Source of the DNA: Oscillospiraceae bacterium
Lineage (GTDB): Bacteria; Bacillota; Clostridia; Oscillospirales; Oscillospiraceae
DNA: 18,838 bases
Assembly (NCBI GenBank): GCA_017521875.1
Contig: JAFXBH010000254.1
Coordinates: 1 to 18,838 of the forward strand
Direction of reading: 5' to 3'
Positions within the stretch are counted from its first letter, which is position 1. The number at the start of each line of letters is the position of its first letter. The notes beneath the pieces were generated by a model. That model was not told the DNA's origin and ran no database searches. It saw only the letters and a list, made by a program, of their open reading frames with translations. Of this stretch, positions 4,275 through 16,461 are shown piece after piece. The translations under genes were made by a program, and so were the position numbers.

Positions 4275-5129
4275 TTAGCGAACGTATTCGATGACTACAC
4301 GGCGGTTAGGCTCGGTGCCAACGGAATAGGTGGTAATGCGGTCGGTGTCCTGCAAGGTGGCGTGGATCACATGACGCTCATAGGCATTCATAGGCTCCAG
4401 GGTGGTGCGGCGGTGTGCCTTCAGCACCTGCTGGGCCTTTTTCTGTGCGTAACGGCGCAGGGAATCTTCCCGCTTCTGCCGGTAGCACTCAGCATCCACA
4501 TTGATGCGAATGTGGCCGTCAATACCGCGGTTGATGGTATAGTTGGCCAGGTGCTGCAGAGCATCCAGAGTATCGCCACGACGGCCGATCAGGTAACCCA
4601 AATCTTCGCCGGTCAGGTCTACCATATAAGTGTTTTGATCTGCTGCCCATGCGTGGGGGATAGCGGCGGAACCCATATGCTCCAGCAGACCCTTCAGGAA
4701 CACTTCGATCTTCTCCTCCACAGAACCAGGTGCTGCAGGAGCATATTCCTTCGGTGCAACAGGGGTCTCTGCCTTGGGTGCCTTGGGTTTCCGCTCCTTG
4801 GGGGTTTCTGTCTTTACAGGCTCTGCTTCGGGGGCGGCCTTAGGTGCTTCTGCCTTGGGTGCTTCGACTTTAGGCTCTTCTGCCTTGGGGACGGGTTTTG
4901 CCTTAGGCTTGGATCGGGAAGCCGAAGACAATGCTACCTTGGGGGCGGGATCGGGTGCTTCATAGGTCACTTCCACCTTAGCAGGGGTAGCGCCAATGCC
5001 CAAAAAGCCACTTTTGGCCTGAGCCAGCACCTGAACGGAAACATTGTCTCTGTCCAGTCCCAACTGAGAAAGGGCATTCTCGATGGCTTCATCGATGGTC
5101 TTGCCCGTTGTAATGATGGTTTTTTCCAT
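4275..5129 (-). CDS. jag: Jag/KhpB, RNA-binding protein with KH and R3H domains
   Basis: 284-aa cytoplasmic protein (SpoIIIJ-associated, KhpB), a regulatory RNA-binding protein linked in Gram-positives to cell division, cell-wall synthesis and membrane insertion. The Jag-N domain is at 1-55 (with KSGFLGIGATPAKVEV). Residues about 60-130 are a linker of repeated Pro-Lys-Ala-Glu units. A type II KH domain follows at about 137-213 with the IGRRGD loop (181-186), then an R3H domain at about 222-284 with Arg252 and His256. The ATG lies 3 nt after the yidC stop and its ribosome binding site (GGAGG) is inside the yidC 3' end, so translation is coupled. It is the last gene of the cluster. Confidence 0.93.
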   Translation of the reverse strand: MEKTIITTGKTIDEAIENALSQLGLDRDNVSVQVLAQAKSGFLGIGATPAKVEVTYEAPDPAPKVALSSASRSKPKAKPVPKAEEPKVEAPKAEAPKAAPEAEPVKTETPKERKPKAPKAETPVAPKEYAPAAPGSVEEKIEVFLKGLLEHMGSAAIPHAWAADQNTYMVDLTGEDLGYLIGRRGDTLDALQHLANYTINRGIDGHIRINVDAECYRQKREDSLRRYAQKKAQQVLKAHRRTTLEPMNAYERHVIHATLQDTDRITTYSVGTEPNRRVVIEYVR

Positions 5130-5132
5130 TAA

Positions 5133-6371
5133 TTATTCCTCCGTGTTTTCGGAAGCGTACCGGTTGGGATCGTAATTACGACCCTTGCAGTAAGGACGGC
5201 TGGGAATTCCGGACATCACGCTGGGTTTTTCCTCTTCCTCTACTACGATACCCTTCTTAGCGGCATACTCTCTGGCAGCAGCAGCCTTGGCAGCCTCCTG
5301 CTCCCGCTGTTGTTGCTGCTGTAATTTCTTTTTACTGGTATTGGTGGTGATGCCATCGGGGTTGGCAGCGCGGCGTTCCGCACGCAGACGCTCCTTCTCT
5401 GCCTCAATGGCTTCCTCTTCCATTGCCTTTGCCAATCGGGCTGCATCTTCTGCATCATAGATGGTGCGGTACTTCTTAGTCAGGTACACATCCATAGCAG
5501 TGGATACAAGGCCCTGAATCAGCCAGTACAGGCTCAATGCGCCGGGAACGGTAAAACCGATCCACAGGGACATCAGCGGCATCATATACATCATGGTCTT
5601 GCCGGTCTGATTGGACTGAGAGTTCTTGGCAGTTTCGTTATCCTGGAGACCCTTTTCATCGGTCACCAGAGAGTTATTCATTCTCCGGGAAATGAGCATA
5701 CTGACCACCTGACCACCGGCAGATAGCACAGGCAGCAGGAACAGGCCAATATTTGCCCAACTCCAAACTTCCCACTTAAACACATTGAAAGTGGGAATAG
5801 CGCCCAAATCCATGCCCAGAAAACCGAAATTCAAACCTTCCAAAGTGGCAGGATTGGAAACCACGCCCTTCAGTTGCTCTGCAAACTGGGGAATCAGGGG
5901 CACAGCGATCATCTGATCGTAGTACTCATTTTTGCCGAATGCTTCGGGCATTGCAGTCTTGATCACATTGACGATCTCGGCTGCTGTCTCTGCACTCTCG
6001 TGGAACATATAGGTGATAGGCTGACGCACAACTGCATACAGAGGCAGCAGAATCAGCAAGGGAACCAAACTCCACAGGCAGCCACCGCCCATAGATACGC
6101 CCTCTTCTCTATAGAGCGCCTGGGTGGCTTCGTTGAGTTTCTGTTGGTCACCGGCGTACTTCTTCTGCAAAGCCTGCAGTTTGGGGGTCAGCCGGGACAT
6201 CTTCATGGTGCTCTTCTTACCCTTGGCAGTGGCCGGCAGCAAGATGAACTTCAGAACGATGGCAAAGATGATCAATGCCCAACCATAGTTGTTGGTCAGT
6301 TGATACAACCAGGACAGCAAGTAGCCAAAAGGAACCTGGATAATATCGGCCAACCGAAATGCTAGAATCAT
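5133..6371 (-). CDS. yidC: YidC/Oxa1/SpoIIIJ membrane protein insertase
   Basis: 412 aa. It inserts and folds inner-membrane proteins, alone or with SecYEG. A short N-terminus enters TM1 (GWALIIFAIVLKFILLPAT, about 30-48), followed by the cytoplasmic helical hairpin with LTPKLQALQKKYAGD and further TM segments (VPLLILLPLYAVV, a segment near 205-225, the MSLWIGF and LSLYWLIQG segments). There is no lipoprotein signal and no large periplasmic domain. The groove Arg of B. subtilis SpoIIIJ aligns by eye with Lys41, keeping the positive charge. The tail (about 310-412) is highly charged, with a KKKLQQQQQREQEAA stretch, and could contact the ribosome. Start supported by TAAGGAGGAG before ATG 6371; yidD ends 12 nt upstream. 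Confidence 0.95.
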   Translation of the reverse strand: MILAFRLADIIQVPFGYLLSWLYQLTNNYGWALIIFAIVLKFILLPATAKGKKSTMKMSRLTPKLQALQKKYAGDQQKLNEATQALYREEGVSMGGGCLWSLVPLLILLPLYAVVRQPITYMFHESAETAAEIVNVIKTAMPEAFGKNEYYDQMIAVPLIPQFAEQLKGVVSNPATLEGLNFGFLGMDLGAIPTFNVFKWEVWSWANIGLFLLPVLSAGGQVVSMLISRRMNNSLVTDEKGLQDNETAKNSQSNQTGKTMMYMMPLMSLWIGFTVPGALSLYWLIQGLVSTAMDVYLTKKYRTIYDAEDAARLAKAMEEEAIEAEKERLRAERRAANPDGITTNTSKKKLQQQQQREQEAAKAAAAREYAAKKGIVVEEEEKPSVMSGIPSRPYCKGRNYDPNRYASENTEE

Positions 6372-6383
6372 GGATACTCCTCC

Positions 6384-6596
6384 TTAGGGAACGGGGTCAT
6401 AAGGATCGCCTTTGTAAAAGGGGTTGCAGCGCAAAATGCGCTTCATGGCCATAAAGCCGCCTTTCAGCGCCCCGTATTTGTGAATGGCTTCCATTGCATA
6501 AGCAGAACAGGTAGGGGTAAAACGACAGCAAGCAGCACGATAGGGAGAGATATTGCGCTGGTAGAATCCAATCATTTTCAATAATAACCGTTTCAT
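6384..6596 (-). CDS. yidD: YidD membrane protein insertion efficiency factor
   Basis: 70 aa, the usual size. YidD is a small membrane-associated protein that aids YidC-dependent insertion. The family signature [15 protein letters not shown] with the downstream [14 protein letters not shown] and the C-terminal DPVP are all present, including the three conserved cysteines. Its ATG overlaps the rnpA stop by ATGA (6593-6596) and it has only a weak ribosome binding site, so translation is probably coupled to rnpA. The arrangement rnpA-yidD-yidC is the classical one. Confidence 0.94.
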
Positions 6597-6931
6597 TGGG
6601 GCTTCAATACCCCTGCTTTCTCCGCCAGGGACAAGTAGGCTTTCGTGAGTTTTTGAAAATCGGCATTGACGCAGCGACTTCTGGCAACCACAACAATATC
6701 CCAGCCGGGATTGAACCGGTCTTCATTCAGTCGGTAAATCTCCCGCAGACGGCGGCGTACCCGATTGCGAACCACAGCATGTCCCAGTTTTTTGCTGGCG
6801 GTGATTCCCACCCGATTGGTGGCCGTCCGGTTGGGTCTGGCATACAGCACCAAATAACTGTTGGCCTGACCGGACGTGGCATACAAACGCCTGAAAATAT
6901 GATTCAGTTTTAGCGCGCAGGAAAATTTCAT
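6593..6931 (-). CDS. rnpA: Ribonuclease P protein component
   Basis: 112-aa basic protein that binds the RNase P RNA and helps it process the 5' ends of precursor tRNAs. The family signature is visible at residues 55-66 ([12 protein letters not shown]), preceded by [15 protein letters not shown] and followed by DIVVVAR. The frame is open back to 7036, but the extra 35 residues look non-coding; ATG 6931 follows GGGGAGA at 7-nt spacing and gives the normal family length. The 289 bp to rpmH hold an intrinsic terminator, and I could not find a convincing promoter of its own between that terminator and the gene. Confidence 0.93.
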
Positions 6932-7122
6932 ACAATTTCTCCCCAGATTGTCCATGAAAGGCGTACTTGTGGAATGGGAACGCTGATGATTCAGTAATAG
7001 ATTTTGGCTTAGATCAAGGTTGAACACCGAAGTCATACTTTGTGTATTACAAGGTGTTTAAAACCAAGGGATAAGCCAAAAGATATGCTGAAGCGCAGCG
7101 AAACGATTCCGAAAGTGCGCCC

Positions 7123-7171
7123 AAATAAAAAGGGAGCGGGGCGAATAGCCATTCACCCCGCACGGACTCCC
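7123..7171 (-). terminator. Intrinsic terminator between rpmH and rnpA
   Basis: On the minus strand a long hairpin (arms 7171-7151 and 7146-7132: GGGAG/CTCCC outer stem, GCGGGG/CCCCGC middle stem, ATTC/GAAT top) is followed directly by TTTTTATTT (7131-7123). It lies about 50 bp after the rpmH stop and about 200 bp before rnpA. It would end or attenuate rpmH transcription before rnpA. Confidence 0.8.
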
Positions 7172-7220
7172 ATTTTGCTTTTCAGCGGTGGCTTGCTATC
7201 ATTAAGCTACCATTTTTCGC

Positions 7221-7355
7221 TTAAGCAGATAAGACCTTACGGCCCTTGGCACGGCGACGGGCAAGAACCTTGCGGCCGTTGGAAGTAGCCATTCTCTGCC
7301 GGAAACCATGCACCTTGGAACGATGGCGACGGCTGGGTTGGTAGGTACGCTTCAT
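7221..7355 (-). CDS. rpmH: Large ribosomal subunit protein bL34
   Basis: 44-aa, very basic ribosomal protein. The sequence is an almost textbook L34: [20 protein letters not shown] at the start, [20 protein letters not shown] after it. The frame is open further upstream, but ATG 7355 follows AAGGAGGTG with the right spacing and matches the invariant L34 start. The usual upstream neighbour dnaA is absent; a BMP-type lipoprotein gene stands there instead. The leader of about 85 nt contains a 6-bp hairpin (7390-7405) and a 16-bp palindrome near its 5' end. Confidence 0.97.
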
Positions 7356-7422
7356 TTTTGTACACCTCCTTGAAATCACATAAGCTCGACAACCCCAAAG
7401 GGTTGCAGCGAAACATAATGAC

Positions 7423-7438
7423 TGACCATACATGGTCA
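7423..7438. repeat. 16-bp palindrome at the start of the rpmH transcript
   Basis: TGACCAT (7423-7429), AC, ATGGTCA (7432-7438): two perfect 7-bp arms around 2 bp, lying within the first nucleotides after the predicted rpmH start site near 7441. It could be an operator or a 5' mRNA structure; nothing in the sequence decides. Confidence 0.5.
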
Positions 7439-7447
7439 TACTAGGAT

Positions 7448-12379: not shown

Positions 12380-13369
12380 ATGAAAAAGATACTGTATTTG
12401 GAATTGGCTGTAATGGCCGTGCTGGTGATCGTGGCAATCATCGTATGTTTTACCTTCACCAACAAACCCGCGCTTCCCCCGGACAGCGGGGAACATCAAA
12501 AAGAACCCTCCCAGGAAACCACGGAAACGCCTACAGAATCTGTCACAGAATTCGTTCCCACCTGGAACACCTATCCCGCAGATCGCCAGTTGCTGGGCCA
12601 GCAGTATTTTGTGTATGACTGCAAGGCAAATACCTTCCTGATTCTCTCCGGACAGAAAACCGACCGGGTTTACCCTGCCAGCATCACTAAACTGTTCACG
12701 GCCTATGTGGCAATGCAGTATGTCCAGCCGGACACCCGGATCACCGCCGGCAGTGAATTGGATATGGTAGCCTGGGGCTCTTCGGTGGCTAAGATCAAGA
12801 AAGGCGACACCCTTACCGCAGAGCAGTTGGTAGAGGCTATGCTCCTGCCCAGCGGCAATGATGCCTCTTATATTTTGGCCTGTGAAGCCGGACGGATCAT
12901 CAAAAACGATCCCGGACTCAGTGCTGCCAGCGCGGTAGCCGCCTTTATGGCAGAGATGAACAAGCAGGCCAAAGATGTGGGAATGGTAAACACCCACTAT
13001 GTAAATCCCGACGGCATCCACGACAACAATCACTACACCACTTTTGAAGATTTGGCTATTTTAGGTAAACTCTCTATGGGTGAGGAAACCATTATGCGGT
13101 ATGCCGCCACCGCCAGAGAAACGGTCACCCTTCACGGCGAGGAGATTGAATGGAAGAACACCAACGCCCTGGTAGACACCACCTCTCCCTACTACTGCCC
13201 CTATGCTGTAGGATTGAAGACCGGGCAGACACCTTCCGCCGGCAGTTGTTTGCTTTCTGCCTTCCGTATGGATGACCACGAACTGCTGATCGGCGTGTTC
13301 GGTTGCCCCGAGGAAGAAGACCGGTTCGACGACACACTGCAACTATTGAATCAAATCGTTTTGAACTAA
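12380..13369 (+). CDS. D-alanyl-D-alanine carboxypeptidase (S11 family, DacF-like)
   Basis: 329 aa, cell-surface penicillin-binding enzyme that removes the terminal D-Ala from peptidoglycan stem peptides. A hydrophobic segment (about 5-27) without a clear cleavage site or lipobox looks like a membrane anchor, followed by an acidic, Thr/Pro-rich stalk to about 62. Catalytic motifs: SITK (Ser101, Lys104), SGN (158-160) and KTG (280-282), in normal spacing. The protein ends soon after the catalytic domain, lacking the C-terminal beta domain and amphipathic helix of DacA/PBP5. Start supported by AGAGGAC before ATG 12380. Monocistronic. Which D,D-peptidase paralogue it is cannot be told. Confidence 0.92.
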   Translation: MKKILYLELAVMAVLVIVAIIVCFTFTNKPALPPDSGEHQKEPSQETTETPTESVTEFVPTWNTYPADRQLLGQQYFVYDCKANTFLILSGQKTDRVYPASITKLFTAYVAMQYVQPDTRITAGSELDMVAWGSSVAKIKKGDTLTAEQLVEAMLLPSGNDASYILACEAGRIIKNDPGLSAASAVAAFMAEMNKQAKDVGMVNTHYVNPDGIHDNNHYTTFEDLAILGKLSMGEETIMRYAATARETVTLHGEEIEWKNTNALVDTTSPYYCPYAVGLKTGQTPSAGSCLLSAFRMDDHELLIGVFGCPEEEDRFDDTLQLLNQIVLN

Positions 13370-13419: not shown

Positions 13420-14601
13420 TTATCCCAATAGGATTACCAGTTGGCATACCAGAATGATTGCTGCCAGCGCCATAGGATAGGTGGCTGCGTAGGCTGCCGC
13501 CACATCGTCTGTACCGGCAGAGGAAATCAGCGTACCCAGCGCGGGGGTGCTGGTCATACCACCGGTGATAGAACCCAGATTGTTCAGCAGAGACAGTTTC
13601 AGTACCTTTGCTGCAAAGAAGTAGCCGATCAGCATAGGAACCATGGTCATCAGCGCACCGTAGACAAACAGAATGGGACCTTGCTCCTTCAGGATCGCCA
13701 CAAATTGCTTACCGCCTTCCACACCGGAACCGGCCAGGAACAGCACCAGGCCCAATTCCCGCAGGAGTTTGCTGGTGGTAGTGGGAACTTGCATATTCAG
13801 TCTGCCAATGCGGCCAAAGTGACCCAGGATCAAGGCAACAATCAGCGCGCCGCCGGTATTACCCAGAGAGAAGGAACTGCCGCCGGGCAGAGGAATCGTA
13901 ATCGTACCCAGCAGGATACCGCCCAAAATGCCCAGGCACACAGGCAGAAGGCCAAAGGGTTCAAAAGAGAACAGCGCCTTGCCGGTTTTTTCCTTTTCCG
14001 TCACTTTAGCGGCTTCGTTGCCCACGAGTTTCTTTCTCTCGGCATCCATATCTGCCCGCAGAATCTTGGGCATCAACTGCACAAACAGAACCACACCGAT
14101 GACGCCAAAGGGGTAGGCAACACCATTGCCCACGGCAACCAAGGATTCTCTTACTTCGCCGGCGGCTGCTTTGGCTGCGGCAAAACCGGGAGTACTGGTC
14201 AATGCGCCGGAGAGCATACCTGCAGTCAGGGCTGCATCCATGCCGGTGAGTTTGGTAATTGCAAAACAAGTCAGGCCGCCGGAGAGGATAATCACCAGGC
14301 CCAGCAGCACATAGGATTTGGCGTTTGCTTTCAGATTCCGGAAGAACTTCGGGCCGGCGATCAGGCCAACGGAGATCACAAACAGCACCAGGCCCAGATT
14401 CTGCACCACCTTGGGCATCTCTGCGCCAAACATGCTGTTGGGGTAGGCAGAACTCAGATGGCCAAACACCAATGCAACCAAAAAGACGGCAGAAGAGCCA
14501 AGGCCAACGCCCTTAATTTCGATTCTTCCAATGATGTAACCCAGGGTCAAAATCAGAAAGATGTTCAGCAGCACATATACCGATTGACTAAACACAAACA
14601 C
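13420..14601 (-). CDS. AspT/YidE/YbjL-type transporter, short form
   Basis: 393-aa integral membrane protein with two homologous halves. Each has the family pattern LGLVLFxxxxG near a long hydrophobic helix and a GxxxGxxTSTPxxA motif (first half about residues 130-140, second half about 345-355). The family includes the aspartate:alanine exchanger AspT. Usual members are about 550 aa and carry two regulatory TrkA-C domains between the halves; here the halves are joined by only a short charged loop (about 185-215). The substrate is unknown. Translation probably starts at GTG 14601, which follows AAAAAGGAGAG at about 7-nt spacing. It has its own promoter and is not cotranscribed with the CARF gene unless by read-through. 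Confidence 0.82.
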   Translation of the reverse strand: MFVFSQSVYVLLNIFLILTLGYIIGRIEIKGVGLGSSAVFLVALVFGHLSSAYPNSMFGAEMPKVVQNLGLVLFVISVGLIAGPKFFRNLKANAKSYVLLGLVIILSGGLTCFAITKLTGMDAALTAGMLSGALTSTPGFAAAKAAAGEVRESLVAVGNGVAYPFGVIGVVLFVQLMPKILRADMDAERKKLVGNEAAKVTEKEKTGKALFSFEPFGLLPVCLGILGGILLGTITIPLPGGSSFSLGNTGGALIVALILGHFGRIGRLNMQVPTTTSKLLRELGLVLFLAGSGVEGGKQFVAILKEQGPILFVYGALMTMVPMLIGYFFAAKVLKLSLLNNLGSITGGMTSTPALGTLISSAGTDDVAAAYAATYPMALAAIILVCQLVILLG

Positions 14602-14663
14602 GAGAATTCTCTCCTTTTTCAGTTCATATCATTGGCCATCACGGCCACAAAACGCTAACGGAA

Positions 14664-14692
14664 ATTATACCACAATCATTTCTTGATTGCAA
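14664..14692 (-). promoter_or_regulatory. Promoter of the AspT-like transporter with an inverted repeat in its spacer
   Basis: Minus strand TTGCAA (14692-14687), 17-bp spacer, TATAAT (14669-14664), with TGG before the -10 making it an extended -10. CAATCA (14689-14684 on the minus strand) and TGATTG (14678-14673) form a 6-bp inverted repeat with 5-bp spacing that fills the spacer and touches the -35 box: a plausible repressor site. Confidence 0.75.
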
Positions 14693-14741
14693 GCCATTTC
14701 CAGAGTCTTACGGTGTCATTTCCTCACTTTTTGCCCATGGT

Positions 14742-15905
14742 TCAAACGCAGATCACCGTAATATTCATTTCTTCTGCCCGCTGATCGTGGTGGGTTTCCA
14801 AAGGATTGGCGGTGACCAGTTCCCTTCGGGCGTATTTGCCGCCAAACCGGGAGGCTACCGTATCCAGTTCATACAGATCCATTTGATCCACATCGCCGCC
14901 CTTGCAGGAAATAAAGGTCAGCACATAGCCTCTGAGCAGCAGGACATCGATTTCATTGCCCACCAGATAGCCTTCATCCCTACTGTTCAATCCCCATTTC
15001 AGGTGGGTACCGATCTTACATCCGTCATACAGGCCGCTTTCCACCCGTTCATAATAAGTATGCAGTTCCAAAATGCAACCGGCTTCCAACAAGCAGCCGC
15101 GAACGGTATTGCTTCCGTAGCGGAAACTGATCCACTGGGAATCCTTGCGGAGATTTTCGATACAACCGGATGCGCGCAGGGCGTTTAAGTAGTCCATAAA
15201 CACATTTTCGTCCTCCAAAGGACGGCCAATACCCACAGATTTGCATATCTTCTCCCTGCTGATCTCCTCAGTATCGGTTTTATTACCTGGCTGCCGGGCA
15301 GTTTTCAGCGCCGCAGAAAAGCCATTCCATTTTCGCATATTCGGGCCGGCAATCTGCCAAATTTTTTCTACATCCCGCCGGGTATCCGGGTCGGACAGGT
15401 TGTCTTTGGATTCCTTTTGCATAGTATAATCCACTTTGCCGCCGTGGAGGCGGATCAGGTCATCAATGGTCAGAGGAATCTGCCGGGATTCTACACACTG
15501 GTCGATCCGCATGGCTTTGGTATTTAGGATCTTCAATTCCCCCTCAACAATGTCGTAGCGGTGCATAGGGATATTGTGGCTCGCAGAATACATACCCATA
15601 GCCACCAGCGCCATATCTGCGCCGCCGGTCAGGTCAAAGAAACACTTGCCCCCCTGTTGCTCCTCCCGCTGCACTGTGGAGGTGATGACCTGCAATACCC
15701 GGTCAATATCCTTCATACTCAATTCCACAAAGGAAATGTCGCTAATGTCGCAGATATCCCGCAGGGCAGTCTCGGTGATTTCCTTCGCCTCGCAGGTCAT
15801 ACCGTCCTTCTGGCCGAAGAAGATCACCTTGTCCATTTTAAAATTCAGACAGGTAACAATATTCTCAATAGGCTCTTTGTCAAAAAATTCTATATTTATA
15901 TTCAT
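14742..15905 (-). CDS. Stand-alone CARF-domain PD-(D/E)XK nuclease (Card1/Can2-like, DUF1887 type)
   Basis: 387 aa. Residues 1-130 read as a Rossmann-like CARF domain: strands at 2-8 and 26-31, and the ligand-loop motif DLTGGADMALVAMG (91-104) where canonical members have TGGTKxM. Residues about 140-265 look like a linker with a winged-helix-type region. Residues 266-387 show a restriction-endonuclease-like core: LLEAGCILE (Glu274), GNEIDVLLL (Glu318, Asp320), FISCK (Lys335), then ELDTVASRFGGKYARRELV. In type III CRISPR systems relatives are nucleases activated by cyclic oligoadenylate. No cas gene or CRISPR array is in the window, so activator and role here are unknown. ATG 15905 follows GGAGA; it has its own promoter, and no clear terminator follows its TGA. 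Confidence 0.85.
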   Translation of the reverse strand: MNINIEFFDKEPIENIVTCLNFKMDKVIFFGQKDGMTCEAKEITETALRDICDISDISFVELSMKDIDRVLQVITSTVQREEQQGGKCFFDLTGGADMALVAMGMYSASHNIPMHRYDIVEGELKILNTKAMRIDQCVESRQIPLTIDDLIRLHGGKVDYTMQKESKDNLSDPDTRRDVEKIWQIAGPNMRKWNGFSAALKTARQPGNKTDTEEISREKICKSVGIGRPLEDENVFMDYLNALRASGCIENLRKDSQWISFRYGSNTVRGCLLEAGCILELHTYYERVESGLYDGCKIGTHLKWGLNSRDEGYLVGNEIDVLLLRGYVLTFISCKGGDVDQMDLYELDTVASRFGGKYARRELVTANPLETHHDQRAEEMNITVICV

Positions 15906-15969
15906 ATCTGTTTCTCCGTTGTTTTTCGGCGATTCTGTGAGAGCATTGCCGACAAGACTCTCTTTTTAC

Positions 15970-15998
15970 ATCATATCACAGTTTTTGTCCCAAGCCAA
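15970..15998 (-). promoter_or_regulatory. Promoter of the CARF nuclease gene
   Basis: Minus strand TTGGCT (15998-15993), 17 bp, TATGAT (15975-15970) preceded by TGA, an extended -10. Start near 15963, leader about 58 nt. The divergent gap to 16210 (304 bp) also holds the two plus-strand promoters of the small unknown gene. Confidence 0.65.
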
Positions 15999-16011
15999 CC
16001 TTTTTTCCTCG

Positions 16012-16040
16012 TTGACATTTCTGTTAAAAATTTTTATAAA
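16012..16040 (+). promoter_or_regulatory. Upstream tandem promoter (P1) of the 83-aa gene
   Basis: TTGACA (16012-16017), 17 bp, TATAAA (16035-16040). Five of six bases match in the -10 and all six in the -35. Start near 16047. Confidence 0.65.
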
Positions 16041-16045
16041 AACCC

Positions 16046-16074
16046 TTGACAACGGGTCAAAACTATAGTATGAT
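16046..16074 (+). promoter_or_regulatory. Downstream tandem promoter (P2) of the 83-aa gene
   Basis: TTGACA (16046-16051), 17 bp, TATGAT (16069-16074). The -35 box is half of an inverted repeat TTGAC-N5-GTCAA (16046-16060), a possible operator. Start near 16081, giving a leader of about 129 nt. Confidence 0.75.
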
Positions 16075-16080
16075 TGCCCC

Positions 16081-16209
16081 ACGCAAGTTCCCATAAATTT
16101 TTAGCTTATTTTGCAAGGATTAGAATTTCCTAGGGAAGTTCTGTCCAAATGCAGGATAGGCTTTTTTTGCGCCTTCCTGACAAAATTTTATATTGTAGGA
16201 GGGACTGTT
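16081..16209 (+). promoter_or_regulatory. Structured 5' leader of the 83-aa gene
   Basis: Two hairpins are visible: one at about 16122-16142 (AGAATTTC with the G-U-containing complement up to GTTCT), and one at 16152-16179 (CAGGA, bulged T, AGGC pairing with GCCTTCCTG around a T7-rich loop). Neither is followed by a terminator T-run. I do not recognise a known riboswitch or small-RNA class. Confidence 0.4.
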
Positions 16210-16461
16210 ATGAGTCACTATTCCGACCCCACTGCCGCAAGAGCCCTTGGCCCCATCAACCGGGAGTTTTCCAAGATGGAAAAGAAGGCCAAAAACCTCT
16301 GCCGCCTTCTGGATGAAGGCAAAATTTCCCCCGAGGAATTTAATAGCGCCCACGCCCAGTTCACTGGCATCTTCCGGCACGTGCTGGACATCACCCACAG
16401 AGAATGGGAAGAAAAGAAAAAAGCCCGGGAAAATACGGGCAAAAGCGATTCCGTGGCATAA
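16210..16461 (+). CDS. Small charged helical protein of unknown function (83 aa)
   Basis: No recognised domain. The protein is hydrophilic and mostly alpha-helical by composition: MSHYSDPTAARALGPI at the start, then KMEKKAKNLCRLLDEGKISP, an EEFNSAHAQFTGIFRHVLDI helix, and a basic C-terminus EKKKAREN. No signal peptide or membrane segment. I have a faint recollection of similar uncharacterised proteins in Oscillospiraceae, not enough for a name. The frame is open back to 16111, but ATG 16210 has a strong TAGGAGGG ribosome binding site at 7-8 nt. It is driven by two strong promoters through a folded leader, which implies high or finely controlled expression, and it is divergent from the CARF nuclease gene. 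Confidence 0.8.
   Translation: MSHYSDPTAARALGPINREFSKMEKKAKNLCRLLDEGKISPEEFNSAHAQFTGIFRHVLDITHREWEEKKKARENTGKSDSVA

Follow-up and report, generated by a model that had tools for sequence, protein, structure and literature searches.

The closest solved fold to the protein described here is that of VC1899 (DUF1887 / PF09002, PDB 1XMX), an orphan with an acidic pocket and weak RNase activity independent of cyclic tetraadenylate (cA4), which has been described as a possible degenerate enzyme "cast adrift" from clustered regularly interspaced short palindromic repeats (CRISPR) (PMC7969007). Other relatives include Can2, in which Lys99 contacts a phosphate of cA4 (PMC7969007), and Cdn1 (PDB 9U49), which engages its ligand via T9, K104, and Y124 and has a metal site made of Glu274, Glu308, Asp310, Glu323, and Lys325 (PMC12825302). 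In CARF domains generally, strand 1 often ends in Ser or Thr, and strand 4 is followed by Lys or Arg in the motif [DN]X[ST]XXX[RK] (PMC4012209). Orphan CARF genes are no novelty in themselves: every CARF family includes members without CRISPR linkage, which have been known since at least 2014 (PMC4012209), and a 2025 classification describes CARF homologs as abundant outside CRISPR loci (PMC12669027). Here we describe a solitary CARF nuclease of an Oscillospiraceae bacterium (assembly GCA_017521875.1, contig JAFXBH010000254.1), a protein of 387 amino acids (aa) with an ATG start on the minus strand of a window that is the entire contig of 18,838 bases. Its fold is predicted to be that of the nucleases that an alarm signal sets off in type III CRISPR immunity. 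Since neither its sensor pocket nor its cutting site is like that of the relatives studied so far, the protein probably responds to another signal, and it would cleave DNA or RNA with a rearranged active site.

An original prediction made from the letters of this window had proposed a CARF domain joined to a restriction-type core. That architecture is right: the AlphaFold2 model (predicted local distance difference test score, 89.7) consists of two halves, one a Rossmann CARF domain and the other of PD-(D/E)XK type, with neither domain missing, and matches VC1899, Cdn1, Can2, and Card1 over the full length. The PADLOC model CARF4 CARF_PDDEXK matches residues 2 to 379 (E = 4e-30), and 1180 homologs were found at E <= 1e-3, figures beyond what chance would give. 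The Pfam family PF09002 scores 21.2 bits over residues 279 to 385, below its gathering cut-off of 26.4, and is present in a relative with 86% identity (P0002) and in many of the 120 homologs listed. The motif positions first proposed (DLTGGAD at 91 to 97, GNEID at 316 to 320, and ISCK at 332 to 335) are borne out by the translation.

Seven nuclease positions (Glu280, Asn317, Glu318, Asp320, Ser333, Cys334, and Lys335) show no variation in an alignment of 121 rows, which leaves out 3 of 81 open reading frames (ORFs) from the locus set that fell outside length limits and includes genes that were fetched twice (L051/L070, L063/L071, L062/L075, and L064/L077). The conserved helix acid is therefore Glu280 and not Glu274, which had been put forward as the core acid; among 45 sequences, at least 90% have Asp at position 274, where this protein has Glu. 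ISCK does lie in the core as predicted, but it is no ExK, its glutamate position being Ser333 in all 121 rows. By motif order, Glu274, Glu308, Asp310, Glu323, and Lys325 of Cdn1 would correspond to Glu280, Glu318, Asp320, Ser333, and Lys335. On the next helix, Glu346 is found in 104 rows, where position 343 is Ala, Ser, or Asp; the other 17 rows pair Glu343 with Lys346, and no row falls in both groups. The core fold, Asp320, and Lys335 are present, and a second acid would come only from the proposed Glu346, which is predicted to reach the metal. In the PD-XXK-E enzymes Cfr10I and NgoMIV, a carboxylate has moved out of (D/E)XK while the Lys stays in place (PMC551604), and the same layout appears here; the likeness is one of motif layout, and the nuclease described here, unlike those enzymes, is CARF linked. 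A literature search for the SxK variant gave no relevant report among the papers listed, and the variant may have been described before; a narrow query on CRISPR-unlinked orphan CARF proteins had no match.

We counted the exchange of Ser for Glu more broadly by adding PF09002 proteins and reducing the set to 141 non-redundant segments (12 of 358 sequences were dropped, their nuclease motif being unreadable). Among SxK members, Glu346 is present in 65 of 82 and Glu343 in 14 of 82, so that 79 of 82 have one or the other. Among the 59 ExK members, no acid occurs at 346, where 56 carry Lys or Arg. A Fisher test of the swap gives p = 1.4e-24 if kinship is ignored, a value that is inflated and amounts to no real test because relatedness explains most of the count. 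In a tree of 134 rows (7 of the 141 were out through length limits or set aside, including P0173, a 729-aa ExK protein), at least three changes between Ser and Glu are needed, and the Glu343/Lys346 type occupies one branch with a support of 97.

The sensor pocket is likewise kept yet altered, which suggests that the ligand has changed. The Rossmann fold and the DLT of the CARF signature are matched, while the final Arg or Lys is Asp97 and the strand 1 residue is Asp9, as in RtcR-like exceptions. Over the 121 rows, position 9 is Asp in 88, Gly in 15, Ser or Thr in 11, and other residues elsewhere; position 97 is Asp in 60, Ser in 24, Gly in 16, Glu in 15, Asn in 5, and Lys in 1; and DxTGG is nearly fixed (Asp, 117; Thr, 108; both Gly, 121). 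Of the non-redundant sequences, 61 of 62 in the clade were counted as having no basic residue after strand 4, as were 7 of 20 other SxK members and 4 of 59 ExK members; here, unreadable motifs (1, 5, and 2 sequences, respectively) are included among those without Lys or Arg. RtcR, whose CARF family also mostly lacks a basic residue at this place (PMC4012209), binds 5′ fragments of tRNA that end in a cyclic phosphate (PMC7790460). RtcR is a transcription activator, whereas the protein described here is a predicted nuclease; by analogy, the RtcR ligand would be only a lead to the one bound here.

We file the protein in an uncharacterised sister clade, and not as Can2 or Card1, because two residue features and the Pfam cut-off fail: the fold is common to all of them, but the ExK Glu and the cA4-binding Lys are absent and the PF09002 score is too low. 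The original label, Card1/Can2-like, accordingly suits the fold but does not make the protein a member, since both the ExK Glu and the CARF Lys or Arg have been replaced. Card1 has ExK. Can2 has ECK and the cA4-binding Lys99, compared with SCK and Asp97 here. VC1899 has ECK with a Lys on the helix, compared with SCK and Glu346 in our alignments, and keeps Arg96, a position that by its motif likely maps to Asp97. Cdn1 has Glu323 in its ExK and a ligand-contacting Lys, against Ser333 and no such Lys in the orphan CARF nuclease.

The gene had been called an orphan with no visible cas10, csm/cmr, or repeat array, and this description holds on the contig and extends to the whole genomes of most relatives. 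No CRISPR-like array was seen in the window among the best 20 of 40 direct-repeat families, nine neighbouring ORFs searched against NCBIfam included no cas gene, and its own genome (82% complete) gave no match to the Cas10 palm (PF22335), RAMP (PF03787), mCpol, or SMODS. In a sample of 295 genomes from the order, 37 carry a match to the CARF nuclease; this count and that for the family, given below, include its own genome and a few matches to the nuclease part only in long ORFs (G036 and G156 in the order; G036, G341, and G461 in the family). PF22335 alone is unreliable, matching E. coli, and its weak partial matches are probably GGDEF proteins; the analysis added RAMPs and a threshold of >= 90 bits for strong hits. 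Strong Cas10 was found in 2 of 37 carriers versus 6 of 258 other genomes, any Cas10 match above the cut-off in 3 of 37 versus 14 of 258, and SMODS in 1 of 37 versus 11 of 258. PF18144 does not cover all CD-NTases. Neither strong Cas10 nor SMODS nor mCpol was found in 33 of 37 carriers, or in 23 of the 27 with completeness of at least 90 and contamination of at most 5 (compiled by hand), each number dropping by one if a weak 27.7-bit match in G222 is counted; the CRISPR-independent action suggested originally fits these genomes. RAMP genes occur in 6 of 62 carrier genomes (in G521 by a single 34-bit match) and in none of the other 56, its own included. In most genomes that carry this nuclease no type III match was found, a point of difference from Can2 and Card1.

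These features are best read as those of a mobile CARF nuclease encoded by one gene, whose ligand has changed and whose active site is rearranged, and which likely serves in defence or stress. Stated in full, and with about even confidence, it would be a stand-alone defence or stress effector of Can2/Card1-type predicted fold that cuts nucleic acid on binding a nucleotide-type ligand other than cA4. As in Can2 and Cdn1, a dimer may bind the ligand across its two CARF domains, opening the nuclease cleft; Asp320, Glu318, Glu280, and Lys335, together with Glu346 relocated in place of the ExK Glu, would then bind metal and cut RNA or DNA; and the resulting damage would stall the cell, with growth arrest, or harm the invader. 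As to the class of ligand, a nucleotide or an RNA end, either cellular or induced by phage, would be likeliest. A bolder version, which we offer only tentatively, is that of a CRISPR-free alarm nuclease of one gene spreading through gut-type Clostridia, whose CARF domain might read a signal other than cyclic oligoadenylate (cOA), such as broken or cyclic-phosphate-ended RNA during phage attack, and fire a PD-XXK-E nuclease, a second active-site layout in the Card1/Can2 superfamily that type III systems would have recruited at least once.

Several observations weigh against a stand-alone effector of this kind. At the cutting site, Glu or Asp stands at 343 in 5 of 59 ExK members; the swap of Ser and Glu comes to about three changes on the tree, and there are not enough independent pairs (two of them on supported branches) to reach significance; and a nested reversal, P0169, has Glu333 and Tyr346 with Glu343 kept. 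mCpol is slightly commoner in carriers (3 of 37 versus 5 of 258; p 0.065), where two of the matches are weak (G016 and G166) and the third, in G272, is the Cas10 ORF itself. The neighbours of related genes are mostly metabolic looking, which also fits a housekeeping role. No homologs were found in phage, plasmid, and viral-contig collections, which leaves little direct evidence for defence, and a status as mobile-element cargo was rejected as unsupported on the same ground. Finally, a homolog in G272, of the Glu343/Lys346 type with DLSGGED and no Lys, occupies the last place in a cmr operon.

This last homolog keeps alive the alternative that the protein is a normal type III effector working in trans, switched on by cOA from a Cas10 elsewhere in the cell or on an incoming element, an account that we consider unlikely. 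The G272 operon (L070, G272:C9, 856 to 9380) is compact and cmr type, probably III-B, with a GGDD Cas10; the homolog starts 42 bp after a RAMP gene and is followed by a 12-repeat CRISPR array. Since this homolog combines the changed cutting site with the missing Lys, the clade does keep a tie to type III in at least one place, and because it sits there without the Lys, cOA might still be bound when that residue is lost. In G144, a homolog is accompanied by a strong Cas10 on another contig, and the six carriers with RAMP genes also favour action in trans, which the original prediction had allowed for and which fits this minority of genomes. Type III linkage, however, was found in 1 of 77 relatives' loci (that of G272), strong Cas10 is not enriched in carriers, most carriers have no RAMP, and the Lys/Arg contact is replaced. 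The Cas10-like protein of G526 also has AGDE where that of G272 has GGDD.

That protein, the one read, belongs to a set of compact type III-like loci (L157, G526:C19; L158, G550:C20; and L159, G520:C41) with Cas10-like ORFs of 515 to 559 aa and with RAMP matches in long ORFs, two matches within one ORF in each; in G550, a 6-repeat array lies at one end of the locus. A further 6-repeat CRISPR array (GTGTCAATGCCC...TTTCTAC) was seen at 13181 to 13587 of L035, about 2 kb downstream of the homolog, in a genome with no RAMP match. A candidate array in L103 was rejected, its repeats being short, phased, and inside an ORF rich in His codons.

A housekeeping enzyme that processes RNA or DNA under the control of a metabolite, and is no defence gene, is also of low probability. 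The metabolic neighbourhoods and the lack of homologs in phage, plasmid, and viral-contig collections speak for it, as does the lack of a recurrent partner when the neighbourhoods of homologs were compared: among 144 immediate neighbours at 75 loci, no Pfam family was found in more than three and, for the best 25 of 49 PADLOC families, none in more than two. These loci (flanks of up to 10 kb) remained from 84 after 7 without an intact ORF match and 2 truncated ones were left out, and represent only relatives sharing two peptide patterns. Single neighbours matched the IetA, MkoA, MkoC, Hhe, and PDC-S37 models among the PADLOC families listed, and a Cmr6 match (E = 1.4e-28) is likely the neighbour in L070. 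Speaking against a housekeeping role, matches are patchy, being found in 1 of 5 genomes of the same genus and 35 of 250 of the same family besides the 37 of 295 in the order, and the identities follow a pattern of horizontal transfer. Lachnospiraceae genomes G519, G520, and G526 share 44, 41, and 40% identity in the CARF nuclease and 33, 32, and 32% in RqcH, whereas family-mates G252 and G222 share 30 and 30% in the CARF nuclease and 53 and 43% in RqcH; judged from these sequences, such an inversion is best explained by transfer between lineages.

Two features of related loci may be added. An AAA-ATPase-like protein (659 aa, named by eye; L071, 6583 to 8562) is encoded 28 bp downstream of the G144 homolog on the same strand. 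Card1-type nuclease parts lie inside ORFs of 835 to 1512 aa in G036:C12, G341:C33, G156:C9, G461:C6, and G789:C10 (L143), which suggests fusions to other domains.

That the protein is a decayed remnant of a CRISPR system since lost, as proposed for the weakly active, acidic-pocketed orphan VC1899 (PMC7969007), is quite improbable even though the ExK Glu is lost here too: the clade is large and patchily spread with a catalytic set that is invariant yet rearranged, which argues against mere decay, the DxTGG loop is kept, the lost Glu has a counterpart on the helix that follows, and there are signs of transfer between lineages.

The features of the locus are collected in Table 1. As first noted, the gene is flanked by a transporter and a small gene without an NCBIfam match. 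The transporter has no match in any of the four other same-genus genomes searched and is not a conserved partner of the CARF nuclease; it shows AspT/YidE/YbjL duplication domains in only 393 aa, compared with 553 to 562 in the profiles. The initial view of a single-gene transcript with its own promoter was not substantiated, with 5 promoter-like sites versus 2.9 +/- 1.7 in shuffled sequence and the sole terminator-like site found in 14500 to 16300 lying upstream of the CARF nuclease gene; the transporter and nuclease genes could be co-transcribed. Contamination was considered for the contig and rejected. Its RqcH shares 59 to 69% identity with the four other genomes of the genus and at most 53% with 43 further genomes that have a match, and because RqcH is closest to same-genus genomes the contig is in keeping with the genus, even if none of the four has the transporter. 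Elsewhere in the window (4275 to 7439), a small cluster resembles jag/yidC/rnpA/rpmH by eye; clusters of this type are typical near the replication origin.

Table 1. Positions of the CARF nuclease gene, its predicted domains and key residues, and adjacent features in the window
Feature	Position	Strand	Evidence
Coding sequence, solitary CARF-PD-(D/E)XK protein	14742..15905	-	ORF listing, homologs, PADLOC, predicted structure
CARF (Rossmann) domain, about residues 1-132	15510..15905	-	Model residues 1-132 match CARF domains of Csm6, Csa3, Cam1, and ring nucleases
Asp9, end of CARF strand 1 (usual CARF residue Ser/Thr)	15879..15881	-	121-row alignment
DLTGGAD loop 91-97 after CARF strand 4, Asp97 at signature K/R position	15615..15635	-	121-row alignment
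PD-(D/E)XK nuclease core, residues 266-387	14745..15110	-	PF09002 match below cut-off and structure matches
Glu280, helix acid of nuclease site	15066..15068	-	121/121 rows
GNEID 316-320, including Asn317, Glu318, and Asp320	14946..14960	-	N317, E318, and D320 each in 121/121 rows
Ser333-Cys334-Lys335, SxK replacing ExK	14901..14909	-	Each residue in 121/121 rows
Glu346 on next helix, proposed relocated carboxylate	14868..14870	-	E346 in 104/121 rows
GGAG, likely ribosome-binding site	15914..15917	-	8 nt upstream of ATG, sequence reading
Neighbour transporter, AspT/YidE/YbjL type, 140 bp downstream	13420..14601	- (same strand as gene)	TIGR01625, E = 5.9e-58
Divergent small ORF	16210..16461	+	ATG at 16210 (ORF listing starts at TTG 16111); no NCBIfam match

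The orphan CARF nuclease provides an assayable protein for the question of CARF sensing outside CRISPR. The exchange of Ser for Glu together with the Glu on the next helix points to a single mutant that would be decisive, and with the cmr-linked homolog of G272 the ligand used within a type III operon can be compared directly with that used outside one.
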